64,000 bases of DNA from Cliona cf. orientalis (Eukaryota > Porifera > Demospongiae > Clionaida > Clionaidae): NCBI GenBank assembly GCA_963930775.1, contig OZ005694.1:10060899-10124898 (forward strand), written 5' to 3'. The first letter of the stretch is position 1; every line of letters starts with the position of its first letter. Below the pieces are notes generated by a model. That model did not search any database. It saw nothing but the letters and a program-made list of their open reading frames with translations, and was not told where the DNA came from. Made by a program: the position numbers and the translations under genes. Positions 8,964-44,199 of the stretch are shown here, in pieces.

Positions 8964-9024
<61 letters not shown>

Positions 9025-12000
9025 CGCCTTCTCTCTCTCTCTCTCTCCATGCAGGGCATGAAAGGTCCTCAGGATCAAGACCTGTTCAGCGCATGCGTTG
9101 GTGACCTAGTAATGGAGAGCCGTGAATTTGAGATGCTCCTCGGTCGAATCGAGCCGGACGGATCTCGCAGACCTGGCTGCATTGATAAATTTCAGAAGGA
9201 GACATCCGAAGTGATCAGTTTCGTTGCTGACGGAGCAGAGAAGAGAGGGCTCTATGAGGACGCCATACGACTCCATGACTTGGCAAAGGTTTGTGTGAGT
9301 GTGTGTTGAAGGGAGAGGGGGGCGGGGTAGAGAGATGGAAACTAGAGGGAGGAAAGGAGCTGGGAGCATCTATAACTGCATGTGATAGATAAAGTCAAGA
9401 TTAGTGGTTTAACTACCAGTACTGGGGTTATGGAAAGAGTTATATTGTAAGAGTTTATAATGTTTTGGGGATCCCTGCATTCAGTGGTGTCCCTAGGTAG
9501 CTGTTTAACTGGGTGCAAGTTAGCTGCGCAAGTGGATGCATAAAGTTAGCAGAAGTGTACTTAGTTAGCATACATGTGTACTATCGATAGTGTAATAACC
9601 TAGATACTATTTCTTGTATATAGACAGTCTACTATAGTGTAGTAATAGCATGTTACATTACTGGTTGTGACAGTGTAGTGAAACATGCATACTGTGATAG
9701 ACTCTAGGTAAACAATAAAGCATAGGATGGGAACACAGGTACATGGATTGGGTACAAATGACCCCACATGCACCCCCCCCCCCCCTGGTGACACCAGAGG
9801 GGGGTATATAGAGAGATGGAAGCTACATATAGGGGGAGGAAAAGGAGCTGGGGGGATCTGTAACTATGTGTGAAAATCAAGTGGTTTAACTACCAGTACT
9901 GTGGCTATGGAAAGGATATAAGAGTCTATAATGTTTTGGGGATTCCTGCATTAATTAGCAATAATTATTGACACACAAAGGGGCACAAGTCATGTAACTG
10001 CGATAGGGTATACATAATATTACAATGCACAATGTTCTAGTACAATGTTTCTATTGTCTGAAGTACATGTATATAGAGTACGTTTTCGACATCATTTTTC
10101 TTGAAATCCCTGCAACTGACTGTAATTGGCATTGTCATGCACCATTCTTGCCTCTGTAGTTACGTTGCTCCCTCCTGTAATTTTATAATTTTGTAATAAT
10201 TAATATAATATGTAAAAAATTATACTCTGTAATGTTATTTGTTCATTCAAGCGAAAGAGGTAGTGAACCAGCTGCTGCCACTTACGGGACTAATTATTAC
10301 TTTTGCTTGCATCACTCTTAGACTATAGTAACCACTATTTCCACATTAGTTATTCAGATTTTATATTATGGTATAGTTCAACACTCTTATCCTATAAATA
10401 AATCTACTCTTGGATACGTACCATTTGCCTGACTTCGATTGAGTACATCATACATCTCCCTGTCATCTTCTGCCGACCGAGTGGGAAGATTAACAGAGTC
10501 GTATGTAGTCTTGGGAATTCCTTCATCGACCAGTGGCTCAACAGATCCCTGCAGAGCCATCTCCTCGTATGGCTGTGCTGTGGGTAAAGTATGAGTGTCA
10601 TCGTACGTGGGATTTTGAAAGAGTCGTTCTTCATTAGTTTTATCTTCATCATCATCATCATTGCCGTAGCCATTGACATAAGTAGTCCTATAACAACATT
10701 TAAAATAAACCATTTTTGATTAGCGTTCATGACTGCTGTGGTTATTCAAGCCAGCTGTGCATGCTTAGACCAACTTACCTGGTACATGTTGAGCTCTTTC
10801 TAGCTTCTCTTTTCTTCATTGATCTGCAAGTGCACACCCATCCAGCGGTCACTAGTGCTAGTACCACCAAGGACAGACCCTGCAGGGCTCCAAGTGCCAC
10901 TAGGGGGTATTGGTAATTCTTGAGTACTGGTTTACAGTCACTGGCCAGTGTTTGACTGTCTGTTGATTCAGATGGGCTGGGTGCACCACACTGTACTTTT
11001 GGCTGAGGTGTGGCAGTTGTCATTGAATTTGTGTTACATTGATGAGGAAGTGTGGCAGAAACTATATAATAGTGAAGTGAAATAGACAGCAGTAATTTGT
11101 ATGCATGCATGTTTTCTTAGCTACCTATACCTACATTGTCCCATCAAATCTCTTGATATTTAGCATGCATGCATGGTCTAAGATAGAAAATGATCTACTG
11201 GACAGTTTACAAATTGTGTGGGTGTAGGTCATGCTTGCTGTGCTTATCGCATGTGATTTATTATAGTTTTGATACTGAATCTGTGATGGAACAGGCTATC
11301 CACATGTTTTCTTGGCTACCTATACCTATAGTATGTTATGTCCCATCAAATCTTAGTATGCATGGTCTAAGATAGAAAATGATCTTCTGGACAGTTTACA
11401 AATTGTGTGGGTGTAGGTCATGCTGCTGTGCTTATCGTGTGTGATTTTTGATACTGATGGAGCAGGCTGTCATGCATGGTGAACACAAGCATGGCATATC
11501 TGGTATTAGTAGCTAGAGGTACCAGTGACAGTGGTTGGTTGGACTGTGGGAGTGTTGGTGATAATTCTTGTTGGACATGGTAGCGTTTTTATAATCGTAG
11601 TAGCATTGCAGGTGTTGGCACTGTTCCTCGTAGTCGTGGCCAGTACACAAAATTCATCCAGATATGTATCCACATTTATTTCACAAACTTTATTATCTGT
11701 TCCACAGTCTGCATGAATGCATAATATTATTATTATTATGAAAGTTCAATACACTTAATATCTTTTATATAATAATAAGGGATGTACACCACAATCTAGC
11801 TAAAGGGCAGAGACACAAAGCCATTTCCTAGCCTCGGGTATATGCTCCCTTGTGCCTCTATTATTAATTTTCACCTGACATGGGCTTAAGTTGGTGGCAA
11901 GCTGTGCATGTCTCATTGCACAGGATGTTTCTCTGCCGGTGTCTTTGATGGTTCAAAAGACAGAAGTCATTCAAGCACTGCCATTCAGTTTCTAATAGAG

Positions 12001-15000
12001 TTACTTGATACATATCTGCTGATTTTGTGACTCTGAGCACTGAGTTGTTATTACAGTTAGGTAAAAAGAAGGAAGCATTCAAACGGTTGCACTGACGGGT
12101 GGCTGCTTGTGATTCCACTAGAAATACTAGTACTAAAAGTGAAAAAGCTAACAGTAGCCCTCTCATATTGTAGGCCTATACTCTAGTTTCCTGAAGCATT
12201 CTAAGAGCATGCTTGATTTAGTGGCTAGAGTGTGTAAGTGCAGGTGAGCCTATGTCTTATATAGAAGACTATGCTTTTCTGTTCCTCTGGGCAAATTGAA
12301 TGTATATTTTGCTCTGTTGAATAAACATTCATGATAGCTATAGTAACAAGTACATACATAGTGCACATTATGTGTATAGTATTCCATTCAGCCGAGGAAG
12401 TTAAGTCACGACTTCTGAGTCGTCATGCATAAGTTACATATGAGCGAGTGATTGTTGAGTATAATACACATAGCTAGTTAAATGATGTTAGTGCATAACT
12501 GCATAATAATTATTCAGTACACTGACTACTATTCTATTCAACGTGTGTCCATTTGTGTATACTGCATATAAAGAGTGTTATTGTACACTTGCATAAGTAT
12601 CTGAAACTCTGACGTAATCTTCTCTTTCATTACTTTCTGTCTGACTCGGTGTTGGTCGATGCAGCCTCATCACTTCGTAGGAGGGGTTACTGCTGCATTG
12701 CAGTTCTTCACCATCTTCACTAGTACTGGCAGTAGCCATAATATTATGCGTCACACTAATTTCAAGAAAGAGATTTTAAATGTGGTGGCACATCTGATAT
12801 AAGATTTTATGTTTCTTATAATATTATACCTAGTCTGTCGTGACTGATTCGTAGCCATTTTACTCTTCATGTATATATAAGTGCACACCCATCCAGTGGT
12901 CACTACTGCCAGCAGTACCACAGAGAGACCCAGCAGAGCTCCAGTTACGGCCAAAACTGGTTCACCAGTCTTCACTGATTTGATTGGTGGTTGATCTTGC
13001 CGATGGTAGCTGGTTGTACTCATGATGATGTAATTGGCTTAGCCTCGTTGCATTGATGAGGGAGAGCGGAGGAATGAGTAGGAGATACAGACACTAGAAA
13101 TATAAAGTAAACTTTGATTCATTATTTGCTTGGTATACAGGACAATGTCATGTCAGTATTGAAGCTGCAGCCCTCTTGGGGTCTATATATGCATGCCCTC
13201 GGAATAGTAGAGTACACTTATATCTCATTATCTAGTATTCTATGGTATACCTATGCCTACAAGATATAAAATAGTTATCATGGGCACATGGGATACATGG
13301 CATTTATTGCACTGAGCCCTTGGACTGCTTCGTGCCCTCTTGCTTTGGTGCAATAAATCCCATACATCCCTGAGCCTCGTGCCCGTGATAATGCATAATA
13401 TTACGTGTATGGCTGAACAAGCTCCCTATATGGTGGGCTGGCATTTAATGTCGCCTACCTATACTGACCTATATTCTGTCCCATCAAGTGTCCATTGAAC
13501 AAGAGATTTATATTATTATTTAGTATGGTAGAAAATGCTCTTAACTACTGGATGATCCAAATTGTGGGGGTGTACATGTAGTTCATTTTTGCTCTATCTA
13601 TTATGGATAGGGCCAAGTGGTAAACATAAGCATGGTATCAGTATAATAGAGACTGTGTACCAGTGACAGTGGTTGGTTGGACTGTGTGAGTATTAGTGAT
13701 AGTGCTTGTTGGACATGGTAGCTTTTCTTTAATCGTAGTAATGGTGCAGGTTGTGGCACTGTTCCTCGTAGTTGTGGCCAGTGCACAAAATTCATCTAGT
13801 TCTCTATCCACCCATGTTTCACAAATTATGGGATCTCCATCACATCCTGCATAATAATGAGACAGTTTCATATTATATGCATACATGTATGTTATGATCA
13901 TAATTATAGGGGCATGCATTGTGCTTTTTTTTACCATAATTGCGTTCTGGTGGCTGTAGTTGCTGGCAAGCTATACAAATCTCATTGCATGTGATGTTTC
14001 TTTGCCGGTGTCGTTGGCTGTTTATAAGACAGAAGTCGTTGTAACACTGCCATTCAGTTGCCAGTAGAGTTACTTGATACATTTCTGCTGATTTTGTGAT
14101 TTGGAGCACTGAGTTGTTACTACAGCTAGGAAAAGAAGCTCTTGAATTATCACACTGATGGGTGGTTGATTGTGATTCCACTCCAAATACTAGTACTAAA
14201 AGCGAAAAAGCTATCAACTGTAGTCCTTTCATATCGTGGACCTATTATTACACTGTGAGTTCAAAGGTGTTTCTTCGATCTTCACGTGATGTTCACTTTG
14301 GGAGATACAGTGCTGGGAATTAGATAGTCGATACTCGGTAATCTACTCTACACTAGTCTTGCTATAGCACACATTTATGTTTCAGTATATCAAACAAGTA
14401 AAAACAATACTTTGTTTATATAGCAATTCCTTGTTCAACACCTAACAGTATTAGTTTATGATAACAGGTGATGTGTTGCTGTTGTGCCTCAGCTAATCGT
14501 TTTCTCTGCCGATGAGGTGATATTTATTGTCAACAATGCCTTTATCAGGAACGCCCAGTTGACTGTAGCCTTTTGGAGCTCTTGCACTTTTTCTTGCAGT
14601 ACAGTTGGATTTTCCTACAGTTTTAGCAATACAAGATACATCATCTGAAGCATTCATTCTATATAATATCCCAACACGTGATTTCAAATTTATCAACCTT
14701 GGGGGTGACATTTGCATGTTTGCTGGTTCAATTATGCCTTAAAACACCATAATTATTTGCAAGTACTAAACTTTTGCTATTTGTGTGCTAAAATGGTACA
14801 GGATCGACAAATTCTAATGCTCTATAGTGCATATAGTTAATATTAGTAGGTACAAAATTTGTATTTTTGGACCAATCCTCGGAAATACTACAAAAATGGT
14901 CACCCTAAGGCATAGCATCCTATTTAAGCTAAACAATTAAGGCCACACAAACTAAATTCACTGTTAAGCGTCACCGCCCGCATGCTATTTTGAAGATCCA

Positions 15001-18000
15001 GCAAAATTTTCATTATTCATTATTGATCACATGAACACTGCACAAAACCTTCAAATGTTCGACATATATGCACAGCACGTCCAAAGCGTTTGTTTCCCTT
15101 CTATAACGACACACTAACAAGTAGAAAACTTGCCTTAGACTTGCTGTCCTGAACCGAATGCAACGAGCACGCATGACCTTTAGCCTTAGCATTGCCCATT
15201 AACGGTAAACCACGCCCCTTTAGTTAGGGGCGTGGCTCGCAATGATAAAGAAAATGAATAATGAATAATGACCGCTCGCCCGCATGGAAAATGGAAAAAG
15301 TGGTGACGATAAACAGCGAAATATCAATTTAGTTTGTGTGGCCTAAAGGAAGCCTATTATGTTGATCATAATCTCTTCTGTGTAGATCTGTATATAGATA
15401 TTATTTTGACAATAATATTTACTGTTTATTTTACCTCTATCTAGAACATCGTAAGTTTGTCCATTGCCGGCTGCTTTTGGGGAAGCTGTGTTTACTGCAT
15501 CATATGTAGTACCAGCTCCTGAGAAGGCGGCTTGGCTACTGGCTTGCTGATGCGCATGCTGACGTACTGCTACGGGTAACACTGGTACTCTGTTTACACC
15601 TTGGCTGGGTTTGCTGTGGATCCTTATCATACTGGTGCCATCATAAGTTGGGTTCTCGAAATATTTCTCTGTGAAGTCTGTTGTATCATCTGTAGTCACT
15701 TCCATATTAATCCTTTAGAGAAATGCAATAATAATAATACTGTTAATAGCTATACACCTTATACATGGAAATTTTCGCTAGACAAAAGTTTACCAAGCCC
15801 AGCTACTTTGTATTACAGACATAATTTTTCACCAGTACTGTTAAGGTTGCCATGCATATCCTCTATATGCATGTAATAATTAACTGCAGACAAAAAAATT
15901 AGCATGGTAAATTTTCGCCATTAAGAGCTACAGGTGGTGAAAATTTTTCTATTTCCACGTATATTATTAGTACCTATTGCGTTTCTTAGTGATAAGGCAA
16001 GTGCAGACCCACGCAGTAGTGACTACCACCAGTAGCAACAGAGAAAGACCCAGTAGACCTACAATTACCATATTAACAGGCGTAAATTGAATGTGATTGG
16101 CTGCAGCAGATGTGCGTGCGTGACTGGCGGTAGTGGTAGTGGTGATCGATGAAGTCTGTAGTACTATTGTAACAGAAGATGATGGACAAATTGAAACTGT
16201 CTGGGTGAGCGTGGGGGTGGTTTTTACAGTTGGATCACACCAAGAAACAGTGGCAATAGAATTTTTTGTAGTTGTAATACACTGTGAATCAGTAATAGTA
16301 GTTGTGACATTGCTGTGATTGCTGAAGAGTGCATGTGCTATCTCTTTACAAATCTTAGTGATATTTGCATCCTGACAGTGTCTGGTTGAGAGACCTGCAT
16401 GTACATGGGAATCGTAAAGATATCAATATTGCAAGTTTTTCCTGCATGCATTTGAGATTATTGTTTTCTCACAATAATTATAATATGTAGAGTTTAGCTT
16501 TTTACTGACGTCAGGGCATTTGATACACTTAGTACGAGTCCTTGTAGCATCATGATAATTCCTTGATTTACTAGTTGCTCTGTCAGCTACTACTATCAAG
16601 TATAATAGGAGGGCTATAACTTTGGTTGCCATTCTTCTTACTAATCTTTAGAACTATAATAGCTGTCTCTTCCAAAATTGATCGAAGGGGTTTTCAGATC
16701 ACCTGACTGGCCATGTATAGCTGTACTTTTATATACTCATTGTCTGGTAAAGGGTCATTTTTATTACGCATCTTGAGGGATTTCCTGTTTGCTCTTGGGA
16801 GTACATGTGTGCATGCTAATAATATTGTGTTGCAGTAGTCTTCTCATAACTTACTGTGTACTAGCTAACAGGGCTTCATTTAGGAGGCGGGGGGGGGGGG
16901 GGGGGGGGGCACTCGCCCCCCTTGCCCCCCCCCCCCCTGTAAAGGTAATATCACACACATAAAGCCAAGAAATCGCCTTAACATGAACGATAAGAGCATT
17001 CAAAGTTTAGTGCCTGAGAGTGCACCAGAAATAATCTCAGGGAGTCCAAAATGCAAGAATTTCCTGGGGGAGCATGCCCCCAGACTCCCCTAGAGGTCGT
17101 ATGCTTATATACATGGAAGATAGTCTTGCCCCCCTTGATCTTGTACTAGCTTGCTGTGCCCCCCTCACATAATACAATTAGTTCAATGCAATGATTATCA
17201 GTGATCACATACAATAATGATCTGTTGTTATGTAAATTTTTTTGTACAGTGTCGTACTACAATTCATGCATTGTCCAAGAAATCATTATTGATCTCATAG
17301 TAGTTCCTTTCTCTGTCAGATTCGCTTTTACTTCCCCCTGGGCCTGGGCCTGGGCCTGAGCCAGTGGCTTTTTGACTACTCCCTGAATCGTCCTGACTCG
17401 CTGCTTCAGTCACACTGCACCCTGCCAACACTGTTTCTAAACATACAGATTTTATCAATAATAGTAATTCATTGCTATATAGGGCAATAGTATCGTATTC
17501 TGTGCTTGATAACATATGTTGATGTAAATATTTAAATAGGATAAGTTTCAGTATACTGCACTCTACCTGCAATAACAATAATATTATGCAGTGCTAGCTG
17601 TATGGCTGGGGCCATGCATGCATTCAACTTGTCACTTTTTCTGAAACAAACTGACTGAAACAAATAGCTTTCCCAAAGTTAAAGTTTCTTTTATTGCTTA
17701 CTAAACATGCTCCATAGTGTTAAAAATCAATTGGTTTGGACCCATGCACAAGAGTGTCATCAAGAGTATATTATTGGTATCATACATAACAATTATTGTA
17801 TATAGAGCCCTGTATATATAACTGTGGAGTTGTACCGTTTGCATCTTGCTTATCCAGTGCTTCATACATGTGACCATTACCAGCTGCTTCCTGTATCGTC
17901 GTTGTCATCGTTGTCATGGTTTGCCTGGAGGAGGAGGGCTGACCGACAGTGTCATACATCACAGAAGCAGCTACAGCTGCACGAGTAGAAGTCATATTAT

Positions 18001-21000
18001 TTATCGTGCTGGACGTCCCCTCGTAGGTTGGGTTCTTGAAGAATCTTTCCACTTCATCGTAATCTTTATTCTCTCCTGCGGGTACAGCACCCACCCTATA
18101 ATATATGCCAAATATAGTATCTAATTACGTGAAGTGTGGTTGATTTTTTTAAATGGGAGCTCACTCAATATTCACCCTCCTTATATAATTTCAATGTATC
18201 TGGTAAAAAATTAACGTTTATGAAGGCTGCTTTGTTAAAATTTTACCCTTTGTATGCTGAGCTCAGCGATATTTCTCGTTTCTTCATGACGAGGCAAGTG
18301 CAGACCCAGCCGGTGGACACCACTGCCAGTAGCAGCACAGAGAGACCCAGCAGAGCCGCTAGAACCAATGTCGGAACGCTGCCAGTTTCTACGGTCAGCG
18401 GCAATTGATCGGATTCTCCAGAATCTGGTATTGGTATGGTGACTTGGAAGCTATTTCCACCCCCGGCCGCAGGATTTGTGCACGAAGGAGTGACTGTGGT
18501 AGTCAGTGTGGCCTGAGTACATTGGCTAGGGGTGATGGTGGGGTGTAGCGTGGGAGGAGGAGTAACAGCTGCCAGCGCTGCGAGGTCCGCACAGTAGCTG
18601 TTCAAGAAGGCGTCTACTTCATCCTCACATTCTCTGTCAATCGTAGCAGTACAGCCTAGTATTAATGTCATACAAATATGCATGCATGATCTTAGATATT
18701 AAGTATCATGGTATGTACACATGATGATTGTCATTGTTGGGAAAATGCATCCCTCCAATATTTATAACTTATGTCTTGACCATGTTTGTGCAGTATCATT
18801 AATTATCTCACGAGTTGGTCCTAGTAGTGCTTGACAGGCATCGCAGATTTCCCTGCATCTGATCCAGTTCAGCCTCATGATGTCGGCCGTTGAGCACGGC
18901 TCACTCGTACTGGGACACAGCCTCAGTCGATAGTCGTTCATAGTCTTTGATACTTGGATCCTTGGGTTGTCAATGCTGCAATTACCAAGTGTAGCAAGGT
19001 TGCGACAGCGGTAGCTACTAGACCTCTCCATCTCTGGTACCACTTCATCTATCGATAGCAATAGCACTACAGTAACTATGATAGTACGAAACTCCATGGC
19101 TGTGACTACTATAATGATATTATGATGTAGAATATCCCAGTCCACTTTTCGAGTATTACCAATACTTTTCACTCTATATACTATTCCTGTGATCAATAAC
19201 TACTGACTACCTGTCTGGGAGCTATATATATACAGACTCAAGATATTATAGTATTGGTTCCCATACATAGAAAGTTTTCTGACTCTACTACACTAAGTCA
19301 ATCCCCTTCTGAATCTGATTGTAATAGACAATGTGTGGTGGTTACCTTGCTGTTTATACCATCAGCTTCATAATTATTTATGCGACATACCCCACATTAA
19401 TTTATAGTGTGTGTCCTGTGTCCCACCTGTAGCCCTTATGAGGGGAAAGACATGTCTGGCTTTATTTGCCGCTAGACATCCTTTTTAGTGTGCTTCACTA
19501 TACATTGTGTACATGATGCATGATCCTAGGAGAACCCACAACTGAAACCATACTATTACGGTGTGTGGGGACCATATATTAGTGAATCAATGCTATTCTA
19601 TACATGATACATGTATATAGTTAGTATGTTTTGTATGGACTGTATAAAATAATGTGTTATGGGAGCAATAGGTGTGGTCCACCCAAATAATATTATGGAC
19701 TCCACTGTAGACTGGTTGTGGCTCATGCAGTGTTTACGTACATTGGATATAAATTCATTATGTGCCCACGGTAATTTTAATTGAGGAAAACGGTACAATG
19801 GATTCGAGACTTAATTTGAATATGACATGCTATGACATCACTATAATAATACTATCCACACATGTACACATGATAGAATCACAGTAAAGTATTGGAACTG
19901 CTGAATCAGCAACTCAGCCACGTTGCGTCGTCCCCCTCCCCTCCGCACTCGGACAGAGAGAGGCTCCAGACCCTTGCCATAAGCATTGCCGAGCGGTACA
20001 AGAACCAGCCTAAGGGACACAGTGCCGGGCGGCAGCTGAGTCAGACGTTCTTCCTTCTCTTGGACATCATGCAGTTCTTTGACCACTATCACAGCAAGAG
20101 GATCGATGTTGCACTAGATGTGAGTCACCTCTCATCTTTGTTGATATTATGGAAATTCAGTAATATAGGTCCACCTTCCAAATCTAAGGGGAGAGGACTA
20201 TTGTGCGGTGGTCTATCTTCAAATAACCAATTCCAACCAAACCTAAGGGGGGGACCATGGGAGTTGGTGAATAACTATTACATCCCTAAGGGGGGACCAT
20301 TGTGTGGTGGTCATCTTCAAATTTTGTATGCAACCAATCCCAGTCATGCAAACCTAAGGGGGGACCATTGTGTTGTCTATAGCTATCTACCCCTTTGCCT
20401 GTTGAGAGGTATATATCCTGGAGAACAGACAATATTAGTATTAGATAGCTATACACAGAGTATGTATTTTTTCTTTATCTGCAGGTGATGAAACAGCTTC
20501 GGCTTCTTCCGCTCCAAGCTGGTGAAACAGTTGATCAGAAAGTGGCCGCCTTCCGGAGTTACAGCGACGAGGTTCGACGCTGTCTTCCCGATGTACTCTT
20601 GGCAACAATGAACATCCTGTTCACACAGTACAAGCAAGTTAGGTCAGTGTAAAATAATTATATGACTACCAGTAGTATCAAATAATGCTAGCTATACCCA
20701 TACAAAGATCATAACGTTGTGACCCAAGGTGCATAGTCATTAGGGGTTGTGGCGATCTTGAGATTTTTGTATAGGTGTAATGTTTAGCATACTCAGTGCA
20801 TAATCTGTATTATTATTTTGTTGTTCTTTTTTTTTTTAGTGCTAGCAGTCCAAGAGTAGCTTTTGCTGGGCCAGGACAAGATGGAGGACAGGAAGTAGTA
20901 AGTTTTGCTTTCGTCTTCATGCTGAATGAACGTTTAGAATTTCTCTTTCTTCTCTCTCCCCACCTTCTCTCGTTCTCTCTCCCTCCCTCGCTCCCTCCCT

Positions 21001-21176
21001 CTCTCTCTCTCTCTCTCTCTTTCTTTCTCTCCCTCTCTCTCTCTTCTCTCTCTCAGCATAAATCAGAGCTTCGTCGTACTGCCAAGACCCTCATCAAGTT
21101 TGCTGGCATGCTACCCTATCAGATGCCAGGGGACACAAACGCTAGACTAGTTCAAATGGAGGTACTTATGAGTTAA
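1738..21176 (+). CDS. NUP93: Nuclear pore protein Nup93, complete, 16 exons
   Basis: Exons: 1738-1922, 2057-2237, 3358-3483, 3741-3905, 4115-4251, 4366-4575, 6775-6997, 7329-7449, 7846-7922, 8387-8501, 8643-8761, 9055-9288, 19877-20119, 20485-20642, 20840-20897, 21057-21176. All junctions keep frame and give 823 aa, close to the ~819 aa of vertebrate Nup93. Family-typical segments include [58 protein letters not shown] and the C-terminal [14 protein letters not shown]. Nup93 is the scaffold of the inner-ring Nup93-Nup205-Nup155-Nup53 complex of the nuclear pore: an N-terminal coiled coil followed by an alpha-solenoid. Intron 12 (9289-19876) is far longer than the others and holds four complete genes on the other strand. 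Exon 13 uses the acceptor GATAG at 19872-19876, which gives the family-like reading NHSKVLELL. Confidence 0.97.
2376..2739. mobile_element. 364-bp non-autonomous DNA element with pogo/Tigger-like ends
   Basis: The ends are near-perfect terminal inverted repeats: CAGTGCAACCTCGATTATCC on the left, with its reverse complement ending in GGTTGCACTG on the right. Both sides are flanked by TA (2374-2375 and 2740-2741), the target duplication expected for Tc1/mariner-superfamily elements. Ends of the type CAGT...ACCTCG.TTATCCG are known from pogo/Tigger elements. There is no open reading frame, so it is a MITE. It lies in NUP93 intron 2. Confidence 0.85.
2856..3292. mobile_element. 437-bp MITE, TA-CCGTATTTT family
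   Basis: CCGTATTTTTTCGCTATTA at the left end is matched in reverse complement by TAATAACGAGAAAATACGG at the right, and both sides have TA. Sub-terminal copies of the motif TGCGCTTATA..AGCG occur several times in both orientations near each end, as transposase-binding repeats often do. It is non-coding and sits in NUP93 intron 2, right after the pogo-like element. Confidence 0.8.
5235..5831. mobile_element. 597-bp MITE, TA-CCGTATA family with GGCGCC repeats
   Basis: The left end CCGTATATGTTCTAATATAGG pairs with the right end CCTATATTAGAAAGTATACGG, and TA flanks both sides. Each end carries a module of alternating TAGGCGCC and CTAATTTAGGCGCCC motifs with a TTTTTCGGTTCTAAT core (5253-5350 and 5705-5815), a direct plus inverted sub-terminal repeat. 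It is non-coding and lies in NUP93 intron 6. Confidence 0.8.
5832..6352. other. NUP93 intron 6, unannotated stretch
   Basis: This stretch contains short repeats of the type TAGGCGAGCTA (near 5890 and 6005) and GCTAGCGCTTGC, then AT-rich sequence. No convincing coding potential or RNA gene was seen. Intron 6 upstream of the MITE (4576-5230) is likewise plain AT-rich DNA apart from the shared repeat at 4808-4855. Confidence 0.4.
6353..6731. repeat. Long, almost perfect inverted repeat (~106-bp arms)
   Basis: The arms at about 6353-6458 and 6625-6731 are reverse complements with almost no mismatch, including the segment AGGGATGGCAGGATCAAAAA and its complement. They are separated by ~165 bp. The RNA of this part of NUP93 intron 6 could form a long hairpin ending ~45 nt before exon 7. 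The near identity of the arms suggests a young foldback element or gene conversion. I did not find a clear target-site duplication. Confidence 0.8.
7024..7185. mobile_element. 162-bp MITE, TA-CCGTGTTTATGC family
   Basis: CCGTGTTTATGCTAATAAAATG at the left (read in parts) matches CATTCTATTAGCATAAACACGG at the right in reverse complement. The left flank is TA and the right flank TT. The internal motif GACGACCTTTACCAGAAAA recurs near 54490, pointing to a family. It lies in NUP93 intron 7. Confidence 0.7.
7567..7742. mobile_element. Foldback MITE carrying a copy of NUP93 exon 8
   Basis: The terminal arms are inverted repeats: TAGCCTCGTCCCCAGGCCAC at 7567-7586, and its reverse complement ending at 7742. 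The two sides share TA. The centre, 7615-7699, is an 85-bp copy of 7338-7422 inside NUP93 exon 8, with only four substitutions. One of them turns GAG into TAG, so the copy is not a usable exon in the ancestral frame. It lies in NUP93 intron 8, ~200 bp downstream of the exon it resembles. Confidence 0.85.
8020..8193. mobile_element. Degenerate MITE, TA-CCGTAAATCAC family
   Basis: The left end CCGTAAATCACAAATATATT corresponds to the right end AATATTCGTGATTTTATAG in reverse complement with a few mismatches, inside TA/TA flanks. It is non-coding and lies in NUP93 intron 9. Confidence 0.55.
8211..8303. repeat. Dispersed repeat (GCCTGAGCAGGCAATGGGAT family), copy 1
   Basis: The block GGTTTGCCTGAGCAGGCAAT followed by GGGATGGTTG...CCCCTTAGG occurs here and again at 51421-51514. 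A shorter relative is at ~8561-8604. The copies are separated by 43 kb, so it is an interspersed repeat and not a local duplication. The family is not identified. Confidence 0.65.
8862..9048 (+). repeat. (CT)n microsatellite at the NUP93 exon 12 acceptor
   Basis: This is ~190 bp of CT dinucleotides interrupted by CCCT and TTTC. It ends six bases before the exon 12 acceptor (AG at 9053-9054) and acts as a very long polypyrimidine tract. Confidence 0.9.
9314..9955. repeat. Diverged direct duplication in NUP93 intron 12
   Basis: Two ~160-bp copies, about 9314-9483 and 9797-9953, share GAGAGATGGAA, AGGAGCTGGG, GTGGTTTAACTACCAGTACT and TATAATGTTTTGGGGAT. The sequence between them is AT-rich and ends in a C-run at 9773-9785. 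No gene was found here. The region separates NUP93 exon 12 from the first receptor-like gene. Confidence 0.7.
10092..12166 (-). CDS. Receptor 1 of the tyrosine-motif receptor array, 5 exons
   Basis: Exons on the minus strand: 11875-12166, 11523-11708, 10779-11061, 10422-10687, 10092-10153. All junctions are in frame and give 362 aa. Exon 1 encodes a signal peptide ([14 protein letters not shown]) and a Cys-containing domain with [19 protein letters not shown] and [11 protein letters not shown]. Exon 2 adds a second small Cys module ending in a Thr-rich stalk. Exon 3 holds the transmembrane helix ([20 protein letters not shown]) followed by AGWVCTC. Exon 4 is an acidic tail with [15 protein letters not shown] and EMYDVLN. 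Exon 5 ends with NYSQLQ. The short last exon is inferred from a good acceptor, phase and the shared YSQL motif. No named family was recognised. A role as a surface receptor signalling through phosphotyrosine is inferred. Confidence 0.82.
11105..11470. repeat. Tandem duplication in receptor 1 intron 2
   Basis: Two ~170-190 bp units (about 11108-11290 and 11307-11470) share CTACCTATACCTA, TGTCCCATCAAATCT, ATGGTCTAAGATAGAAAATG and GGACAGTTTACAAATTGTGT. A more diverged single relative lies in the matching intron of receptor 2 (13440-13600). The intron was therefore present before the two genes split, and it duplicated in receptor 1 afterwards. Confidence 0.8.
12578..14232 (-). CDS. Receptor 2 of the array, 4 exons, divergent tail
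   Basis: Exons: 13935-14232, 13661-13846, 12830-13037, 12578-12755, giving 289 aa. The ectodomain is the closest relative of receptor 1 ([48 protein letters not shown]). The helix [22 protein letters not shown] is followed by a basic stretch. The tail differs from the other members: NPSYEVM, EDYVRV and DTYASVQ, then a stop, with no YDxV/YDVL pair and no YSQL exon found. The exon 3 start needs care. The position homologous to receptor 1 (after CTAG at ~13069) is out of frame by one base and meets TGA; the acceptor GCTAAG|CC at 13038 restores the frame. Either that site is used or the locus carries a frameshift. Confidence 0.72.
13275..13391. repeat. Foldback element in receptor 2 intron 2
   Basis: TTATCATGGGCAC...GCATTTATTGCAC at the left is the imperfect reverse complement of GTGCAATAAAT...CGTGCCCGTGATAA at the right. 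The whole is a ~117-bp hairpin, probably a degenerate MITE. Confidence 0.6.
14493..16632 (-). CDS. Receptor 3 of the array, 4 exons, shortened ectodomain
   Basis: Exons: 16473-16632, 15974-16394, 15435-15712, 14493-14614, giving 326 aa with all phases matching the other members (1, 2, 1). Exon 1 has a signal peptide ([12 protein letters not shown]) but only a short Cys segment ([13 protein letters not shown]). The long first Cys domain of the paralogs is missing. Exon 2 fuses the second module, a long Thr/Ser stalk and the helix ([20 protein letters not shown] followed by VCTC). The tail carries [15 protein letters not shown] and QTYDVLD, and exon 4 gives GYSQLG and NKYHLIG. Donor TATT|GTGAGA for exon 1 was chosen because it gives phase 1 into exon 2. 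The open frame would otherwise run on to an unrelated stop. Confidence 0.77.
14940..15344. mobile_element. 405-bp MITE in receptor 3 intron 3
   Basis: AGGCCACACAAACTAAATT at the left and AATTTAGTTTGTGTGGCCT at the right are perfect inverted repeats. Inside, TTCATTATTCATTATT (15008) is matched by AATGAATAATGAATAATG (15253), and GCCCGCATG recurs inverted near 14978/15277. It is non-coding. The target duplication is unclear (A/T-rich flanks). Confidence 0.75.
16633..17263. other. Spacer between receptors 3 and 4 with G/C homopolymers
   Basis: The spacer holds receptor 3's promoter region and a ~20-base G run (16889-16909) followed by CACTCGCCCCCCTTGCCCCCC. A related fragment (CTTGCCCCCCTTG, GTGCCCCCCTCAC) lies at 17125-17166. 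No gene was seen. Confidence 0.5.
17264..19097 (-). CDS. Receptor 4 of the array, 4 exons
   Basis: Exons: 18812-19097, 18247-18655, 17836-18095, 17264-17436, giving 375 aa with every phase consistent. I chose the start at 19095-19097 because it begins the signal peptide [14 protein letters not shown]; upstream in-frame ATGs add a non-hydrophobic leader. The ectodomain has [31 protein letters not shown] and [12 protein letters not shown]. Exon 2 adds [14 protein letters not shown], a long Thr/Pro stalk and the helix [20 protein letters not shown] followed by [12 protein letters not shown]. The tail has [16 protein letters not shown] and HMYEALD, with Thr-rich spacers. The last exon has a Gly-Pro dipeptide run (GPGPGPGG) and ends near RNYYEINND. 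It lies wholly inside NUP93 intron 12, antisense. Confidence 0.82.
20185..20385 (+). repeat. Minisatellite-like direct repeats in NUP93 intron 13
   Basis: Four imperfect copies of CCTAAGGGGGGACCATTGTG, with variants such as ACCATGGGAG, occur at irregular spacing near 20186, 20240, 20284 and 20351. Two are followed by GTGGT..ATCTTCAAA. They are non-coding. Confidence 0.7.
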
Positions 21177-21831
21177 TTGATTAACTGATTAGTTATTATT
21201 ATTATTCTCAAAACTCATAATATACATGACTGTTGCAATCATAATTATGAAGACTTAGATATAGTGTGAAATACTTTGACCATCCAGCTAATATATACCT
21301 TTAGCGTTTTCATGAGCGCAATTAATTTACCCTATCCAATGATCCTCCTGTATCAAGACATCTATATTGCATGAGGGAGCTATCTATTATAATAGTATAC
21401 TAATATGTGTGATCCTATATATAGCAAAGGTAAAAGTATTATTCTGTCACGCATCATGCATCCTAATGTAATTTATGCTTATTTATAGAAGTTCTACATA
21501 CTTTAATATTTCCAGATCGTTGAGTGCATGGCCGTATCAGTGGATGTTTGGGATTTCATATTATTATGGTAGAGAGTCTAATGGCTGCTGTTCCGGGCTG
21601 TTAACTCATGACTAAATGTGATGCATTAGCTACATAACTAGCCTAATGAGGAAAAATTAAGCATGACTAGTATAGTATAGCATCAGTACACATTGACAGT
21701 ATCATACAAAATAATATTATCTGAGTGCAGTACTGAGTTTTGATACAATCTTCATAATTCTAGAGCTTAAAGTGGCTATAACTTTTGCAATTATATGGGT
21801 CATCCCTTACTGGAGCATCACCTGCATAAAT
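21177..21831. other. Spacer, convergent 3' ends of NUP93 and receptor 5
   Basis: This is AT-rich sequence between the NUP93 stop and the receptor 5 stop, which face each other. Presumably it holds both 3' UTRs. Nothing else was recognised. Confidence 0.5.
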
Positions 21832-23726
21832 TTAATAATGTGTATATGCATGGTATACATGAAATTGGAAATTGTCCGAATTCTCACCATTCATTTCATC
21901 ATGCACTCCTTCTAGCACATCATAATCCCCTCCATCATCGTAGCAATCATCATAATCGTGGCAGGGAGGGTCCACGGTATCATACCTAGCTGCCGAGTGT
22001 AGGTTATGAATACGAGGTTTGGGAGCAACAGCAGGAGGACCTGGAGGACCTGCTGGTGCACGTGCTGCTTGATGCCCACCAGTGTATGAAGCATTTTTGT
22101 CGTGGGACTTGCGTTCGTATCTCACTGGCTGTGTGTTTGCAGCGACTACATGCATGACGTCAATTTCTGGCTCAAGTATGTCATAATCTTCGCTGTCTTC
22201 CTGAAGGTTGGAGCTTGCTCTTTCGAATCTAGCATCTTGGATGTCTCGTGCTCGAGTGAGCTTATCAGATCTAGAGCTGCAAGGGCTCCCTTCATATATG
22301 GGGTTCTTGAGATGCTTTTCCTCACCAAAGCCTGAGGTGGCCTCTTTGTTGCTACCAATGTGAATTTCGTGATCAAGAACGTCGTAATCCTCCCCTTCTT
22401 CATAATGTGGTCGACTTACTGCGTCATATTTGGCCACCGGAAAATCACTGATACTTGACATCTCTTCATGTCTTACTACAATCATTGAACCACTGTCGCT
22501 AAATCTTTTGGTAATTTCTGCGTCTCTCTCTGGGGTACTGCCTTGCTCTATAGCGTCGTACATGTAGTCATCGTTGTCGTCCTGCGAGCAATCGTAGTTT
22601 TCTCTCTCATAATATCTATCCGTTTGAAACTCTAAGGATCCCTCGTAAATTGGGTTCTTTAGGTGCTTTTCTTTCTGGTCATCCATTGCAGCTGCACTCA
22701 GAAGCGCTGTTGCAATTGCTTGACTTCCGATGACACCGAGTATGGCGTCATTTTGATTGAAGCTCATATTGTGAGAAGGAGATATTATTTTGGTGGGGTC
22801 TTGCTTGATGGGGGCTAGCGCTGATCCCGGTGGAGGGTAGTTGTGGACGCTAGTGCTCTCCTCGTGCAGTGGATTGTGGATGTGCTTTTCCATCCCATCA
22901 TCGCTATCTGTGCCATCATTAGCTGTCCTGTGTACAAAGAACATACATGCACTTTCAAAAAATGGCTAGCTACCTAATATATACTGAAACTATCTTGGTA
23001 TACATAATTATGTGCACAAATTAATTGTGCTGCTACATGCTGCCTATAGCTATATACTAGAAATCATAATAGAGAATCAGCTGAAGTTATTCAGTATAGC
23101 TATACCATAGTACTTACCGTTGTTCTTCGAGAGAATTCTTTTGTGGCCTTTGTATATTATGTTTTTGAGTTTTCAGTGCTCTACATGTGTATAGCCATCC
23201 ACCTGTCACCACCAACAGTAGCACCAAGCACAACCCTAAGAGAGATCCCAGGGCCACTGTTGTACTTCTTGCTTCAGTCTCTGATGGTCCTTGAGTCTGA
23301 TCTGCCAACAAACTGCTAGTATTAGGTGAGATACCTTCACAGAAGTTGTTAAGATATGCATCCACTCTTTGTTCACATTCTTCATTATCTTCACATTTTC
23401 CTGTAATTATAGATAATAATTGTGATTATTCTGTAACAACTATGATAATTATAATAACTATTACCTGATTCCAAACTCTTGCAAGCCTCACAGATGGCAC
23501 AGCATTTGAAATTGAAGGTTATATTCTGATCATTGAGAACTAATGTCAGCCGGTATGTGTCTCCAGTCTTGTACGTTTCAACATAAATATTAGTTGAATT
23601 GTTCAGACAATTTTCTGGTTGATTTTGATATTTACATGCATAAGATGTTGGTATCTTGTCATTGTGATTGGGTGCTTCCACTGTCGTTATAAAGAACAAA
23701 ACCGACAGCACTATTCTCACTGACAT
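21832..23726 (-). CDS. Receptor 5 of the array, 3 exons, expanded tyrosine tail
   Basis: Exons: 23465-23726, 23118-23400, 21832-22927, giving 546 aa. Exon 1: signal peptide (VRIVLSVLFFITTV), YACKYQNQPENC, NNSTNIYVETYKTGDTYRLT and FKCCAICEACKSL. Exon 2: CEDNEECEQRVDAYLNNFC, a short stalk and the helix TVALGSLLGLCLVLLLVVTG followed by GWLYTC. Exon 3 is a single ~365-residue cytoplasmic exon, three to four times the size of the other tails. It repeats the module HNPLHEES / KNPIYEGS / KNPIYEGS followed by YMYDAIE, AKYDAVS, EDYDVLD, EDYDILE, ARYDTVD and GDYDVLE, and also has a PAGPPGPPAVAPKPR proline stretch of SH3-ligand type. It looks like internal duplication of the NPxY-YDxV-YDVL unit. Function is inferred, not known. 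Confidence 0.83.
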
Positions 23727-24148
23727 TTGGCTCTCTCCACCACAGTGACTTAGCTAGCTAGCAGACTATTCTTAATTGATGCTATTGAATTTGTTATGGT
23801 GGTGAGTCTGTGGTATTCATCAGGTGATACTGTGCTCCATTGCTCATGCATGCAATAGTCTACTTGAAGACTATCAAGTGCAGACAGCAAACAGCAAACT
23901 TTTCCTAATTTTACTATAAGTATTCGTAGACAATAATAAACATTTCCTATAATATTATTGTTTTCATTTGTATAGTTATTGTACTACAGGACTTAATACA
24001 TGAATACAATCGTGTGTATATCACATGTTGCATGCATATGTGTGGCTCTAATCAGTATATGAATAGGTAGCTACAATCTACATAAGAAAATATTGTATAT
24101 TAATTTTTATAGTTTTGAGGTAAATTTTGCATGTTTGAATTCAGCTCC

Positions 24149-25826
24149 TTATTTGTTGGTCTGTTCAGCATCACGAGGACCCAGCTGACTGTAGCCTCTA
24201 TCAGCACCAGTGCTCTGTGCAGCTGTGGCCCTAGTTTGTCCTGCAAGAGGGAAGCGTTTGTGTACAACCATGATGTATATAGCTACAATGTAATACAGAT
24301 GCAGTAAGCCTAAATGTTTGTGAAAGTACTAGTATTAGTTCGAAACTAGGAAATGTTTTTGATTGATGTGCAGCTAGTGTGAGCTTGGTATTAATAATAT
24401 GGGATAATTAACAAAAATATACGGGCTGGCTCAAATTTAAATTACATAACTACTAGTATACTACCTGTTGCTTGTCCTCGATTGAGAATGTTGTACATTT
24501 GTCCAGGGTTTCTTGCCTGGGAAGGAGTGTTTGCCACAACATCATAGGCGACCACGGCTGGAGCACCAGTTGAGCTAGCTCTTCCATTGATCTCGTATGA
24601 GGGGTTCTTGAGGTCTTCTTTATTAGTACCAATGCTAATAGAGAGAGTTTATGTGTTAATTAGATCCTACTTGTAACAAATATAGTGATCTGATTGGTTG
24701 AACTGCAGTATCTATCCTTCATAAAAAACCTTGTAAGCCCCATAAAAAACCTTGTAAGCTCCATAAAAAACGTGGTAAATTTTGTTTGCCTATGGCTAGT
24801 TTGTTGCTAGGCAGTTGTTTATATACAAAGCTGTTGGGCATTGTTGCTAGGATCTAAAGTAGTTAGACACTGTTTAGTCGATTTCTACGTGATTTAGAAG
24901 ACCTCAGGGCTCAGTAGAACCCTCGCTTCACTCGGGATTCTACACAGAGCCCTTCAGTCTTCTAAATCACGTAGAAACCTCCTAAACAGTGTCTAACTAT
25001 TATTTAGAATCTATGAAAATCTTAGTGACTTAATTATATTGGTGGCTGGGTATAAAGTGTATGTTAGAACACTCTCAGGCTAGTTTTCATGTAGTCCCTT
25101 GATTATTCATTTCTGTATTATATAATACCTGTATTTTGCTTACCCTTTAAGTTCCACTGTGCTCCTTTTGGTATCTCTTTTTGTCATGATATAGCGACAT
25201 GTGCACACCCATCCAACAGTCACGGTTGCTAGTAGCAACACAGATATGCAAAACAAAACTCCAAGTGCAATAAGAGAGTTATCCCTCTCACTGGCAGAGG
25301 CTCTGCCACCACTTTCAGCAGTGAAAGGAGGAGTAGTGGTGCTTAAGCAGTGTCCGTTTAAAATGTCATCCATTCTATCTTCACATGCAGCTTCACGTTC
25401 CTGTCGATTTAAATCATGCTCATCTCCTAGACCTAATTCATGTGCACAGTTTTCACCTGTGAAAATAAAAATGTCATTGATTAATTAGCTCCTATGGCTA
25501 CGTAGCTTGCTCCATCCTTAATATCCAATAGGCTATTATGACTAACCTCTTAGATCTAGATCTAGAATTTCACATACTTCATCACAGATGTTGCAACATT
25601 CAAAGTTGATGGTTATGTTTTTGGTGCAGTGGTTGCTGGCACACAATATTGTTAATCGATAATGTGTCGCTTTGGACTTATCTACCCTAATCCTGGGGTT
25701 ATTAGAGCAGCTCATAGGTTGGTTGAGTGGATTGCACATGTGGTGCGAATTTTCATCACATGCCATCACTTGCTGGGTCACTGTCATCGACAGCAAAAGT
25801 ACCAAAACTGGAGACTTCACTGACAT
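24149..25826 (-). CDS. Receptor 6 of the array, 4 exons
   Basis: Exons: 25547-25826, 25144-25456, 24465-24634, 24149-24240, giving 284 aa. Exon 1: signal peptide (SPVLVLLLSMTVTQQVMA), CNPLNQPMSC, NNPRIRVDKSKATHYRLTIL and FECCNICDEVCEIL. Exon 2: a second Cys module of different spacing (ENCAHELGLGDEHDLNRQER region), a stalk and the helix LIALGVLFCISVLLLATVTV followed by GWVCTC. Exon 3: KNPSYEIN, VAYDVVAN and QMYNILN. Exon 4: GYSQLGPRDAEQTNK at the end. The GYSQLG ending is shared with receptor 3. Intron 2 contains a palindromic MITE. Confidence 0.82.
24727..24775. repeat. Short tandem repeats AACCTTGTAAGCYCCATAAAA
   Basis: Two full copies and one partial copy of a ~21-bp unit (CCTTGTAAGCCCCATAAAAA, CCTTGTAAGCTCCATAAAAA) lie in receptor 6 intron 2. 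Confidence 0.7.
24862..24997. mobile_element. 136-bp palindromic MITE in receptor 6 intron 2
   Basis: GTTAGACACTGTTTAG...TTTCTACGTGATTTAGAAGA at the left is the near-perfect reverse complement of TCTTCTAAATCACGTAGAAA...CTAAACAGTGTCTAAC at the right. The flanks are TA on both sides. The loop carries a second small palindrome (GGGCTC...AGAGCCC). It is non-coding. Confidence 0.8.
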
Positions 25827-26615
25827 TTTGTTCAGGCTCTCACGGCAGCTTTTGTGTTACAAAGGTTCTAAGCAACTTTATTACTACCACTGCTTGGACA
25901 AAAATAAACTCAGGTGTCGTATTCTAGTACCAGTGTGACAGCTGCATGTGAGTATCCATACATACACATCTTTATTTATGTTTCTGGAAACCATCAATCC
26001 TTTGCAATAATATTATTATTATGATCACGAGTGGCTTCAGACATCAGTCAATGTCACACTTGAAAGTCACAGTACAGTTTGTTATTCTTTCACTTACATA
26101 CAATATAGGGACTTTGCAAAGGCAATATCCCATGCCACTTTAAATTTCCTCCTAGTTTCTGTATACTTTCAGTACCTCTATAAAGATGTGAAAGATATTA
26201 GCTTCCCTCATGTAGCTATAAATTTACTGCTATGATTACCAAGTAAGTTCAATGCATGCATGAATATTGGAATAATTATAGCTAATATATGAACATAAAA
26301 ATTAATTGTATAATAGCGCTAGCTGTAGTACCATGATTTGACACCAAGCCAAATCTTCACGTGATGGCTATAGTATTTACTGTCCAAGATGTCCTTGTAG
26401 ATCAATTGTTGGTTTACCTATCGCAACAAGTAAGGCAATTACTCTCACACCCAGCCCTGTTCTGTGCCAATAGCGTTTGTATATATAGCATGGTCTTGCT
26501 TCCACTGTGCACACAAATCATTATATAATTACACACAAATCCATATTAATCAAAAAGCGTCATGAAATTTAACATTTTGAATTGAACTGTTTGCCAAACT
26601 CAAGAATTGTCTGCT

Positions 26616-28154
26616 CTAAAAAATATAGGTACCATTTGCTTGCCATTGTTTATCAGGCACGGCGTACGTCTGTTCATTTTCTATAGTTATTTTGGTGGAA
26701 TCCGATAAGTTCACCGACTCGTAAGTGGGAGACGAAGTGCCATTTTTGTTCGATGATGTCCCTTCGTAGGTGGGATTTCTGAAATATCTCTCTTCTTCAT
26801 CATCTTCGTCATCATCATTCTTCTCCTTATGTAATGACTCTGGAGCAGCCCTATTTGAACAATGGTAAAGACTATGTGGTTTATGGTGGACTAAATTTTC
26901 AACCATCACATGTTGAGCTTGGCACACATAATATAGCTAATTAGGTGCTGTTATTATGTGCACCAGCCCTTGATGTACATGCATCTTTAAGTTAGACTCT
27001 ATTCTATAGATCACAACCTTGACAATCATATACTATTCAGTTTCACCTGTTTTGTTCAATGCTCTCAGTCATCTCAGAATTATCCACCGTCTTCCCTCGT
27101 TTCTTCATCGACACGCACGTGCACACCCACCCAGTGGTCACCAGTGCCAGCAACAGCACAGATAAGCCCAGCAGAGCTCCAAGAGCAGCTACTATTGATT
27201 TATAACTAGAGCCTGACGTATCACCGGTGGCAGTTTGCAGAATTGGTTCGGGTGATACTTGACCACCAATTGCCTACATGCACAAATAATACAATATTAA
27301 ATATCATACTAATCATCACATCTAGGCATCTAATAATGAACGTGTCAATTTGAGCCCATAGGCTTAAGTGTTAATGGCATCGATATCTTATATGGTGTTA
27401 TTCCTAACTATTGGGAAATAATTATTAGTAATTCTGACCTGGCTAGAAGGAGTGCACTCGGAATTTGATTCAGCAGGCAGTTTCTCAATGGTGGTTGCCG
27501 CCATGCTCGACAGTGTACCGGTATACACACTTAAACTGTTACAGTAATCATCGAAGAATTTATCCACTTGCTCCTCACAATTTGGATCCCCTTGACAATC
27601 TACAAGAAGAGAAAACCATGGCATGGCATACTTACATGTACTGTCAAATTATCGTTACACATGCACATGCAATTTGATCACGAGTATCAATAGTCTAAGT
27701 ACACACTATAATAATAATATTATTATTATAGCCTCATACTTTGATAAGTTAGGAGGAGGTTAAGGACAGGCTGTATAATTATAGATACTCAGGTATATAC
27801 ATATTAATAGTTTATCATTGTCTTTTTCAACATAGCTAAACATTAAAACTTCTTGATCTTACCACTTTGTCCAGGGAGTGATTTGCAGACGTCGCATACA
27901 TCATTGCATCTGATCTTCAAGTTCATATCTCCCACCTTATCAGACATACACTCCCCATTGGTGCAGAATCGCACTAGATAGTCCTTCTTGTCTTTGGTTA
28001 CTCTAATTCTCGAGCTATTTCTGCAGTAGTCTATTTTATCGAGCCTTTGACAATCATACATTGCTTTCACTAATACTCCAGCTTCCAATAATATCAAGAA
28101 CATCATCACTACTAACGGCAGTATAGCAGTGTAACCCTGTGTCCAAACTGCCAT
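26616..28154 (-). CDS. Receptor 7 of the array, 4 (or 5) exons
   Basis: Exons: 27863-28154, 27439-27599, 27047-27273, 26616-26850, giving 304 aa if the frame runs to the stop at 26616-26618. Exon 1: signal peptide (PLVVMMFLILLEAGVLV), YCRNSSRIRVTKDKKDYLVR and CNDVCDVCKSL. Exon 2: CQGDPNCEEQVDKFFDDYC and stalk. Exon 3: stalk, the helix [20 protein letters not shown] followed by TGWVCTC, and a basic stretch. Exon 4: acidic linker, RYFRNPTYEG, PTYESVN and QTYAVPD. Exon 4 also offers the donor AAATG|GTACCT at 26632, the same place where other members splice to a last exon. A possible in-phase last exon is 26377-26417, but it lacks the YSQL motif and is weak. Stalk and helix sit on separate exons, unlike receptors 3-6. 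Confidence 0.8.
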
Positions 28155-43460: not shown

Positions 43461-43520
43461 TTTCTTTTGTTGCTGCAGGTACCTCCGTTACTATAGCAAC
43501 CTACATACGTGTAGAGTACC

Positions 43521-43530
43521 GCGCATGCGC
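43521..43530. promoter_or_regulatory. GCGCATGCGC palindrome (NRF1-type site), TSNAXIP1 promoter
   Basis: GCGCATGCGC lies 61 bp upstream of the TSNAXIP1 start codon and matches the core of the NRF1 consensus. The same motif recurs in the duplicated promoter (46278-46287) and upstream of CYBA (57886-57895). Confidence 0.5.
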
Positions 43531-43616
43531 AAATAGGTACTAACTGATGTGAAGATAATAATTATTGTGAAATGACACCACCCGGGCATAAATATTGGAA
43601 AATCTATTAAATCAGA

Positions 43617-44160
43617 CTAAGTGGATTGATGAATACTATTCGTGAGTAAATCCTTGAGTTCATTGTAGAGCTGCCAGTCCATGTGAGAGGGCCCTGGCTT
43701 GGAACAGTCTCTCAGCACCCTTTTTAGAGGTTCAGCTATGCTGGCTGGGGGATCACACAGAAGGTTGGGATGAAATTGGTACTTTTGAGTGAACAAAAGT
43801 CGACATAATAACTATAAAGAGAGCATATGATATAAATCATTATCCGCTAACCATGCATTATTGTAAAAATTAAAATACTGACAAACCACGGACTTACCAC
43901 TAAATTGCTGCTTTTCAGCTTTCCAGAGCACTTTCCAGTTGTCATATCACACTCTCCTAGACAGTTGAAGAAAGTGCAGTCTTTATCACCACTGCACTCA
44001 TCGTGATACATAGTCATGAGGAGGGATTGGCGAAACTGAGAGAGATCCACGTCAATGGCTTTGGCTACAAGCCTGCCAGAGGCCGTCTTTACCTGCAGAC
44101 ACCGATAGATACTAATTTTATAACAATGTCATACTATACCCATAAGCAAAGAGCCATGTA

Positions 44161-44199
<39 letters not shown>

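Follow-up and report, generated by a model that had tools for sequence, protein, structure and literature searches.

What are the seven divergent genes that lie in tandem on the minus strand at positions 10092 to 28154 of a 64,000-nucleotide stretch of the reef demosponge Cliona cf. orientalis (contig OZ005694.1, positions 10,060,899 to 10,124,898; hereafter the window), and do they stand alone? A sequence-only reading of the window had described them as single-pass receptors with divergent ectodomains and conserved, tyrosine-bearing tails. We find that the array is real, with exceptions in single genes, and that it forms a small outpost within a larger family. With a probability of about 60%, we propose that this family, some 60 members strong, consists of diversified single-pass surface recognition receptors that would signal through phosphotyrosine. 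The family, its clusters, the exchanges between its members, the coding constraint on their tails and the tyrosine motifs can be read from the genomic sequence itself; surface location, phosphorylation, partners, ligand and biological role we infer.

Extent of the family

We searched 216,785,154 bases in 149 contigs of the odCliOrie1.1 assembly (GCA_963930775.1; 217.17 Mb in 307 scaffolds according to passages of PMC12639293), where "chr" denotes the numbered contigs and the window lies on chr6. In a single-pass search, the transmembrane (TM) exon of g7 (the window genes are numbered g1 to g7 by increasing position) matched 45 places at E≤1, and the 28 matches at E<1e-3 comprised the seven window genes, 20 places on chr13 and one on chr16. 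Each window gene was retrieved genome-wide at E 2.3e-5 or better, which places the array beyond chance. An iterated TM-exon profile, run against open reading frames (ORFs) of at least 25 amino acids on both strands of chr13:678001-788000 (minus 693146-694000 and 729501-730000), the window and the chr16 locus, gave 62 matches, all on the minus strand: 54 in chr13:679-786 kb, seven in the window and one on chr16. In all the sequences searched, including both the opposite strand and the rest of the window, no further ORF reached E<1. The 62 are TM exons rather than proven genes, and one of them, the 726-kb TM frame on chr13, is atypical; iterated profiles may drift and their E-values are partly circular, the weakest match here standing at 1.8e-6.

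The window and chr13 clusters are also linked through their ectodomains, because a first-exon profile from six window genes matches three chr13 modules (E 1.4e-15, 1.9e-8 and 1.8e-6), with the next best match at 0.044 and the best opposite-strand match at 0.46. The remaining chr13 heads were out of reach of this profile, iteration included. On chr16 lies a dispersed relative of the 740- and 742-kb genes of chr13, with 96% amino acid identity over the TM stretch and 82-84% DNA identity.

Two weaker leads were set aside. The weak TM matches at chr6:10.70-10.77 Mb reflect chance TM similarity, as the two stretches read there come from a different, longer TM family; that family is itself clustered and single-pass, has multi-domain ectodomains (FN3-like by eye) and is apparently unrelated. 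A weak chr17 match (E 0.55) fell at a locus with no TM match in the iterated search. A search of viral contigs gave no match, and full-text literature searches, several covering only the best-ranked matches and with preprints and most subscription journals outside their scope, found no published description of the family.

Tails, exchange and selection

For each of the 54 TM exons on chr13, tyrosine motifs were counted in ORFs of at least 60 amino acids within its downstream interval, with the opposite strand as control; shuffle-based enrichment is biased here, since ORFs were picked by motif, and the strand control was relied on instead. NPxY occurred in 32 of 54 coding-strand intervals (36 in 18321 amino acids) but in a single one of the 54 control intervals (1 in 12430 amino acids), YxIP in 22 intervals against 3, and YDxP in 9 against 0. 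The recurrent order in chr13 tails is NPxY, YExI or YETV, YDRL, YSRL and YYVLEGP. One tail frame downstream of a TM exon (chr13:707574-708950, minus strand) carries nine YDEP or YDKP motifs, another chr13 tail has at least six YH(I/V)LEGP repeats, and many family members have long Thr/Ser-rich stalks. The immunoreceptor tyrosine-based inhibition motif (ITIM) is (S/I/V/L)xYxx(I/V/L); VMYDTV in g4 and SAYSRL in the chr13 tails at 749-763 kb are single fits to it by eye.

Heads and tails have not always descended together. Among self-BLASTN matches of at least 450 columns on chr13, the genes at 740 and 742 kb share head and TM exon (94.9% over 1070 columns), the match ends 63-72 bp past the TM frame, and their tails differ; this is the one pair in which near-identical ectodomains, the mark of paired receptors, stand on different tails. 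Conversely, the 733- and 740-kb genes share the tail and downstream DNA (85.6% over 1903 columns) in a match that ends inside the TM frame, and their heads are unaligned among the matches listed, the first exons being distantly alike by eye. The 742-kb tail is in turn that of the 716-kb gene (dN/dS 0.19, the ratio of non-synonymous to synonymous substitution rates), under a different helix and head. These matches show exchange between genes, beyond simple duplication: heads and tails have changed partners close to where the TM exon ends. The diversified or paired pattern proposed for the window alone is thus stronger than could be read there.

Selection was compared in pairs hand-picked among visibly similar copies, not all of them independent; chr13 genes are named here by position in kb. 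In five of seven pairs, dN/dS for the tail was significantly below 1: 716/724 (0.05), 740/733 (0.17 in each of two exons, p 0.0056 and 5e-5), 742/716 (0.19), 731/738 (0.20) and 720/728 (0.27). The other two pairs, 701/703 and 717/725, both gave a non-significant 0.49. Pooling ten similar tails at chr13:749-763 kb gave proportions of synonymous and non-synonymous differences of 0.114 and 0.040, a ratio of 0.35. The tails are coding and under purifying selection. For the TM block, dN/dS was 0.14-0.47 in five pairs and 0.78 when pooled over the chr13 749-763 kb set.

Heads range from constrained to unconstrained. For 740/742 the ratio was 0.39 in the first exon (5 changes) and 1.51 in the stalk (6 changes), and the stalk of 740 against the chr16 copy gave 1.52 (p 0.22). 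Head or stalk values elsewhere were 0.67 (731/738), 0.92 (734/736), 0.94 (720/734) and 0.48 (701/703 stalk, p 0.017), and first exons of the genes at chr13 696-703 kb spanned 0.18-0.65. The evidence falls short of positive selection, as no significant ratio exceeds 1 and a separate value of 1.51, other than that of the 740/742 stalk, comes from a poor 49-column alignment. The claimed contrast of divergent ectodomain with conserved helix and tail holds in the alignment and in most dN/dS comparisons but fails in some.

Gene models and known proteins

Splice models, derived from genomic DNA alone, give all seven window genes GT-AG junctions and open frames, and their outer limits are those originally proposed. 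The first gene, g1 (10092..12166, 369 amino acids), has exons 12166-11875, 11708-11523, 11061-10779, 10687-10422 and 10174-10092 and a tail with NPTY, YDSV, YDVL and YSQL; g1 and g2 have duplicate first exons (79.7% DNA identity over 300 columns by self-BLASTN). For g2 (12578..14232, 289 amino acids), the exons are 14232-13935, 13846-13661, 13037-12830 and 12755-12578, with NPSY, YVRV and YASV in the tail. The model of g3 (14493..16632, 336 amino acids) joins 16632-16473, 16394-15974, 15712-15435 and 14644-14493, the acceptor of the last exon being uncertain, and its tail reads NPTY, YDAV, YDVL, YSQL and YHLI. Exons 19097-18812, 18655-18247, 18095-17836 and 17421-17264 make up g4 (17264..19097, 370 amino acids; tail YDEV, NPTY, YDTV, YEAL and YYEI). 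The longest protein, from g5 (21760..23726, 548 amino acids; exons 23726-23465, 23400-23118, 22927-21888 and 21821-21760), ends in an extended tail that contains two NPIY, many repeats of YDxV or YDVL type (YDAI, YDAV, YDVL, YDIL and YDTV) and a proline-rich stretch, and the shortest, from g6 (24149..25826, 284 amino acids; exons 25826-25547, 25456-25144, 24634-24465 and 24240-24149), has NPSY, YDVV, YNIL and YSQL. Finally, g7 (26377..28154, 341 amino acids) comprises 28154-27863, 27599-27439, 27273-27047, 26850-26633 and an uncertain last exon, 26504-26377, with NPTY, YESV and YAVP in its tail.

Across these seven models, proteins are 284-548 amino acids long with tails of about 78-390, and each starts with a hydrophobic stretch and contains a single dominant TM segment, in keeping with the single-pass layout first read from them (the g5 tail holds a second, weaker hydrophobic stretch, 1.75 against 2.57 for the TM segment). 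The seven-row alignment likewise bears out the block of GWVCTC type after the helix: its invariant columns include the L, W and T of the helix and this block and the N and P of NPxY. Other claims needed amendment. The common exon order with intron phases 1, 1 or 0, 2, 1 applies to g1 (1,1,2,1) and g7 (1,0,2,1), but g3, g4, g5 and g6 (phases 1,2,1) have no intron separating the second Cys exon from the TM exon, and g2 (1,1,2) lacks the fifth exon. All seven proteins have 8-15 Cys in the stretch from residue 21 to the TM segment, but the first of the two small Cys modules is shortened in g3 by its splice site. NPxY is present in all seven tails, but the proposed order of NPxY, YDxV and YDVL breaks down in g2, which has no YDVL, and in g7; a YSQL near the tail end (g1, g3 and g6) was missing from that scheme.

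Pfam recognised none of these proteins. The best match for the seven whole window proteins, E 5.9e-4, lay under its family's cut-off; six window modules gave no match at E≤10, and ten chr13 pieces (nine ectodomain, one tail) gave only sub-cut-off matches. Candidates rejected on this basis were TMEM51 (PF15345; 20.1 bits against a gathering cut-off of 25.5, in one of seven members), Amnionless (weak, in two of seven, best E 0.034), and FAM176 and MAM (weak or sub-cut-off, in single or few members). No Pfam immunoglobulin (Ig) family matched the seven window proteins (E≤1), the six window modules (E≤10) or the nine chr13 ectodomain pieces (E≤1), a minority of the chr13 heads; an Ig domain in the ectodomain is not supported, although one may be present. 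In the PDB profile search, LYVE1 (PDB 8orx) reached an E of only 0.018, aligning profile positions 127-249 with chain residues 173-301, which we took as stalk and TM composition, and other matches were at E 0.24 or worse. AlphaFold models of the first module, built on contiguous window exons from six- and seven-row alignments (65 and 70 residues), were predicted as helix-strand-strand-strand-helix both times, and Foldseek with the first model only found nothing at E≤0.001 (best E 0.59). The earlier statement that no named family could be recognised therefore stands for the Pfam, PDB sequence and Foldseek searches.

Vertebrate paired receptors are of the KIR, LILR, CEACAM and NITR type. The sponge genes resemble them in tandem arrays, common heads on different tails, tyrosine motifs and exchange between genes, and differ in that no Ig heads were found, the multi-tyrosine tails are led by NPxY and the spacing of the immunoreceptor tyrosine-based activation motif (ITAM) is not enriched. 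The chr13 tail frame with nine YDEP or YDKP motifs is reminiscent of the YDxP substrate region of p130Cas, from which it differs by its position downstream of a TM exon. Sponge aggregation factors, a proposed sponge recognition system, are extracellular proteoglycans, unlike TM receptors with tyrosine tails. A title cited by PMC5450542 calls their main protein highly polymorphic; passages of the same paper describe sponge grafting work from which a polymorphic genetic basis for self/non-self recognition is deduced, and report that genes of aggregation factor-mediated adhesion were not significantly enriched in Amphimedon grafts. The Alr family of the Hydractinia allorecognition complex, for which passages of PMC11999971 and PMC11067881 report 41 members and extracellular domains of high polymorphism, is like the Cliona family in being a clustered family of single-pass proteins. 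In the same passages its ectodomains are V-set or I-set Ig, whereas the Cliona scans gave no Ig or other Pfam match, and the two low-confidence models have a helix, three strands and a helix.

Two other features of the window were noted. A NUP93/Nic96 gene segment lies on the plus strand at 8666..20119 (coding blocks 8666-8761, 9055-9288 and 19877-20119), with a Pfam Nic96 match (E 3.9e-39) spanning the join of the last two blocks, and g1 to g4 are nested on the opposite strand within its intron of about 10.6 kb (about 9289-19876). Further along, minus-strand ORFs at 43425-48915 form a tandem 2.9-kb duplication (43425-46174 against 46185-48915, 86% identity) with near-identical gene pieces, which may be FAM69/DIPK-like.

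Possible function and rival explanations

The proposed receptors would work as follows. The head, which is one small Cys-rich module or often two, carried on a Thr/Ser/Pro stalk, would bind ligand, and the conserved helix with its GW(V/L)(C/W)TC juxtamembrane block would pass the signal across the membrane. Clustering could then let Src-type kinases phosphorylate tail tyrosines ordered from the membrane as NPxY, then YExI or YDxV, then YDRL or YDVL, then YHVL, YSQL or YEIP, so that NPxY would recruit PTB proteins, and the other tyrosines SH2 proteins, to give an output. Tandem duplication would create new receptors, as would the exchange of ectodomain-plus-TM blocks against tail blocks near the TM-exon end; one ectodomain could thereby feed into different outputs, in the manner of vertebrate paired receptors. 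We see recognition of non-self as the likeliest use, be it of tissue from conspecifics or of microbes and symbionts. Of 126 SH2 candidates in the genome, 103 match at E≤0.001, and 13 of these form a run of about 250 kb on chr7:1892335-2143698 (plus strand), 10 of them in open frames of more than 370 amino acids. Among three SH2 stretches read, those on chr7 and chr12 have SH2 and a tyrosine kinase in one frame and that on chr19 has SH2 alone; with kinase and "Src-type" labels assigned by eye, the chr7 run suggests a tandem expansion of Src-like kinases. That SH2-kinases act with these receptors is speculation.

Several observations weigh against the recognition-receptor interpretation. No ectodomain ratio (0.11-1.5) was significantly above 1 among the pairs compared, and some were significantly constrained: the first exons of g1/g2 (0.31, p 0.0008; the second exon gave 1.23) and of 700/701 (0.18), and the stalk plus TM of 710/712 (0.11). 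Yxx[LIV] with a polar or acidic residue is enriched just about twofold per residue (150 in 18321 amino acids against 51 in 12430). The ITAM, YxxL/I x6-12 YxxL/I, was rejected as the organising motif, its spacing occurring in 13 of 54 intervals against 7 of 54 (16 in 18321 amino acids against 9 in 12430); a few individual chr13 tails match it by eye. The first-module models are of low confidence (predicted local distance difference test, pLDDT, 65.1 and 56.8), and ligand binding by the head is for that reason a guess. In g2, the acceptor homologous to that of g1 leads to a stop before the TM helix, and full length is reached only via a downstream, non-homologous acceptor, so the gene may be broken. 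Ten TM exons at chr13:750-763 kb have no recognisable ectodomain exon, and the tyrosine motifs fit endocytosis too.

These ten TM exons lie with ten constrained tails in chr13:749.4-763.5 kb, commonly 1.1-1.4 kb apart, the 753-kb TM exon having no such tail and a 762-kb tail having no TM exon. A common upstream first exon was rejected, as 7 of 11 copies had a candidate start and the frame was open in one. The units might serve as alternative 3′ cassettes or as exchange donors, or they may encode very short receptors.

NPxY and YxxPhi motifs are read by adaptor proteins as signals for endocytosis, and the genes might encode endocytic or scavenger receptors whose diverse heads let a filter feeder capture particles or macromolecules. 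The spread of NPxY (32 of 54 chr13 intervals and all seven window genes) and the abundance of Yxx[LIV] agree with this, but many tails have more ordered tyrosines than uptake should require, including YDxP and YHVLEGP repeats, and the swapping of whole tails while ectodomains are kept suggests different outputs; we consider it unlikely. Mucin-like adhesion glycoproteins, in which the Thr/Ser/Pro stalk is central, the Cys modules attach to matrix or to aggregation factor, and the tyrosines provide a link to the cytoskeleton, would account for the long stalks of many members and for the Cas-like tail at chr13:707.6-709.0 kb. Since the heads are too divergent for a single ligand, and head-tail exchange and some 60 TM exons would be unusual for structural adhesion, we hold this to be slightly less probable again. 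That most copies are decaying duplicates with few functional genes among them is very improbable, given purifying selection on tails (significant in five of seven pairs, pooled 0.35 in ten copies) and intact chains in five of seven window genes (g1 and g4 to g7, the last exon of g7 aside), even though the g2 frame problem, the g3 truncation, the chr13 TM exons lacking ectodomain exons and the atypical 726-kb frame point that way.

The recognition-receptor reading has a narrower form, in which the receptors serve microbes or photosymbionts only and have no allorecognition role. The genus Cliona hosts photosymbionts, one published title pairing Cliona varians with Symbiodinium, and the structural evidence for this form is identical to that for the general reading; it does not separate the two, and we regard the restriction as possible, though with odds well short of even. 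More doubtful is an ambitious extension, a receptor complex for sponge histocompatibility or immunity that would have arisen independently of Ig domains, with its main locus on chr13 and an outpost on chr6 in NUP93, its variable Cys-module heads and exchangeable TM-tail cassettes recombined by exchange between genes, perhaps with splicing into the 750-763 kb cassettes, to yield a combinatorial repertoire.

The family is thus larger than first described, belongs to no known family found in our searches, and has the architecture of a diversified, partly paired-type receptor system, for which an immune or allorecognition function would be the presumed use. Because the outer parts are often fast-changing and the tyrosine-rich inner tails are conserved and swapped between genes, its members are candidate recognition receptors with which a sponge may discriminate self, stranger and microbe. 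They would represent, in an animal phylum that branched early, a paired-receptor architecture in which no Ig domains can be detected, and a clustered, exchanging family of tyrosine-motif receptors in a chromosome-level sponge genome offers mapped loci for segregation, resequencing and expression tests.

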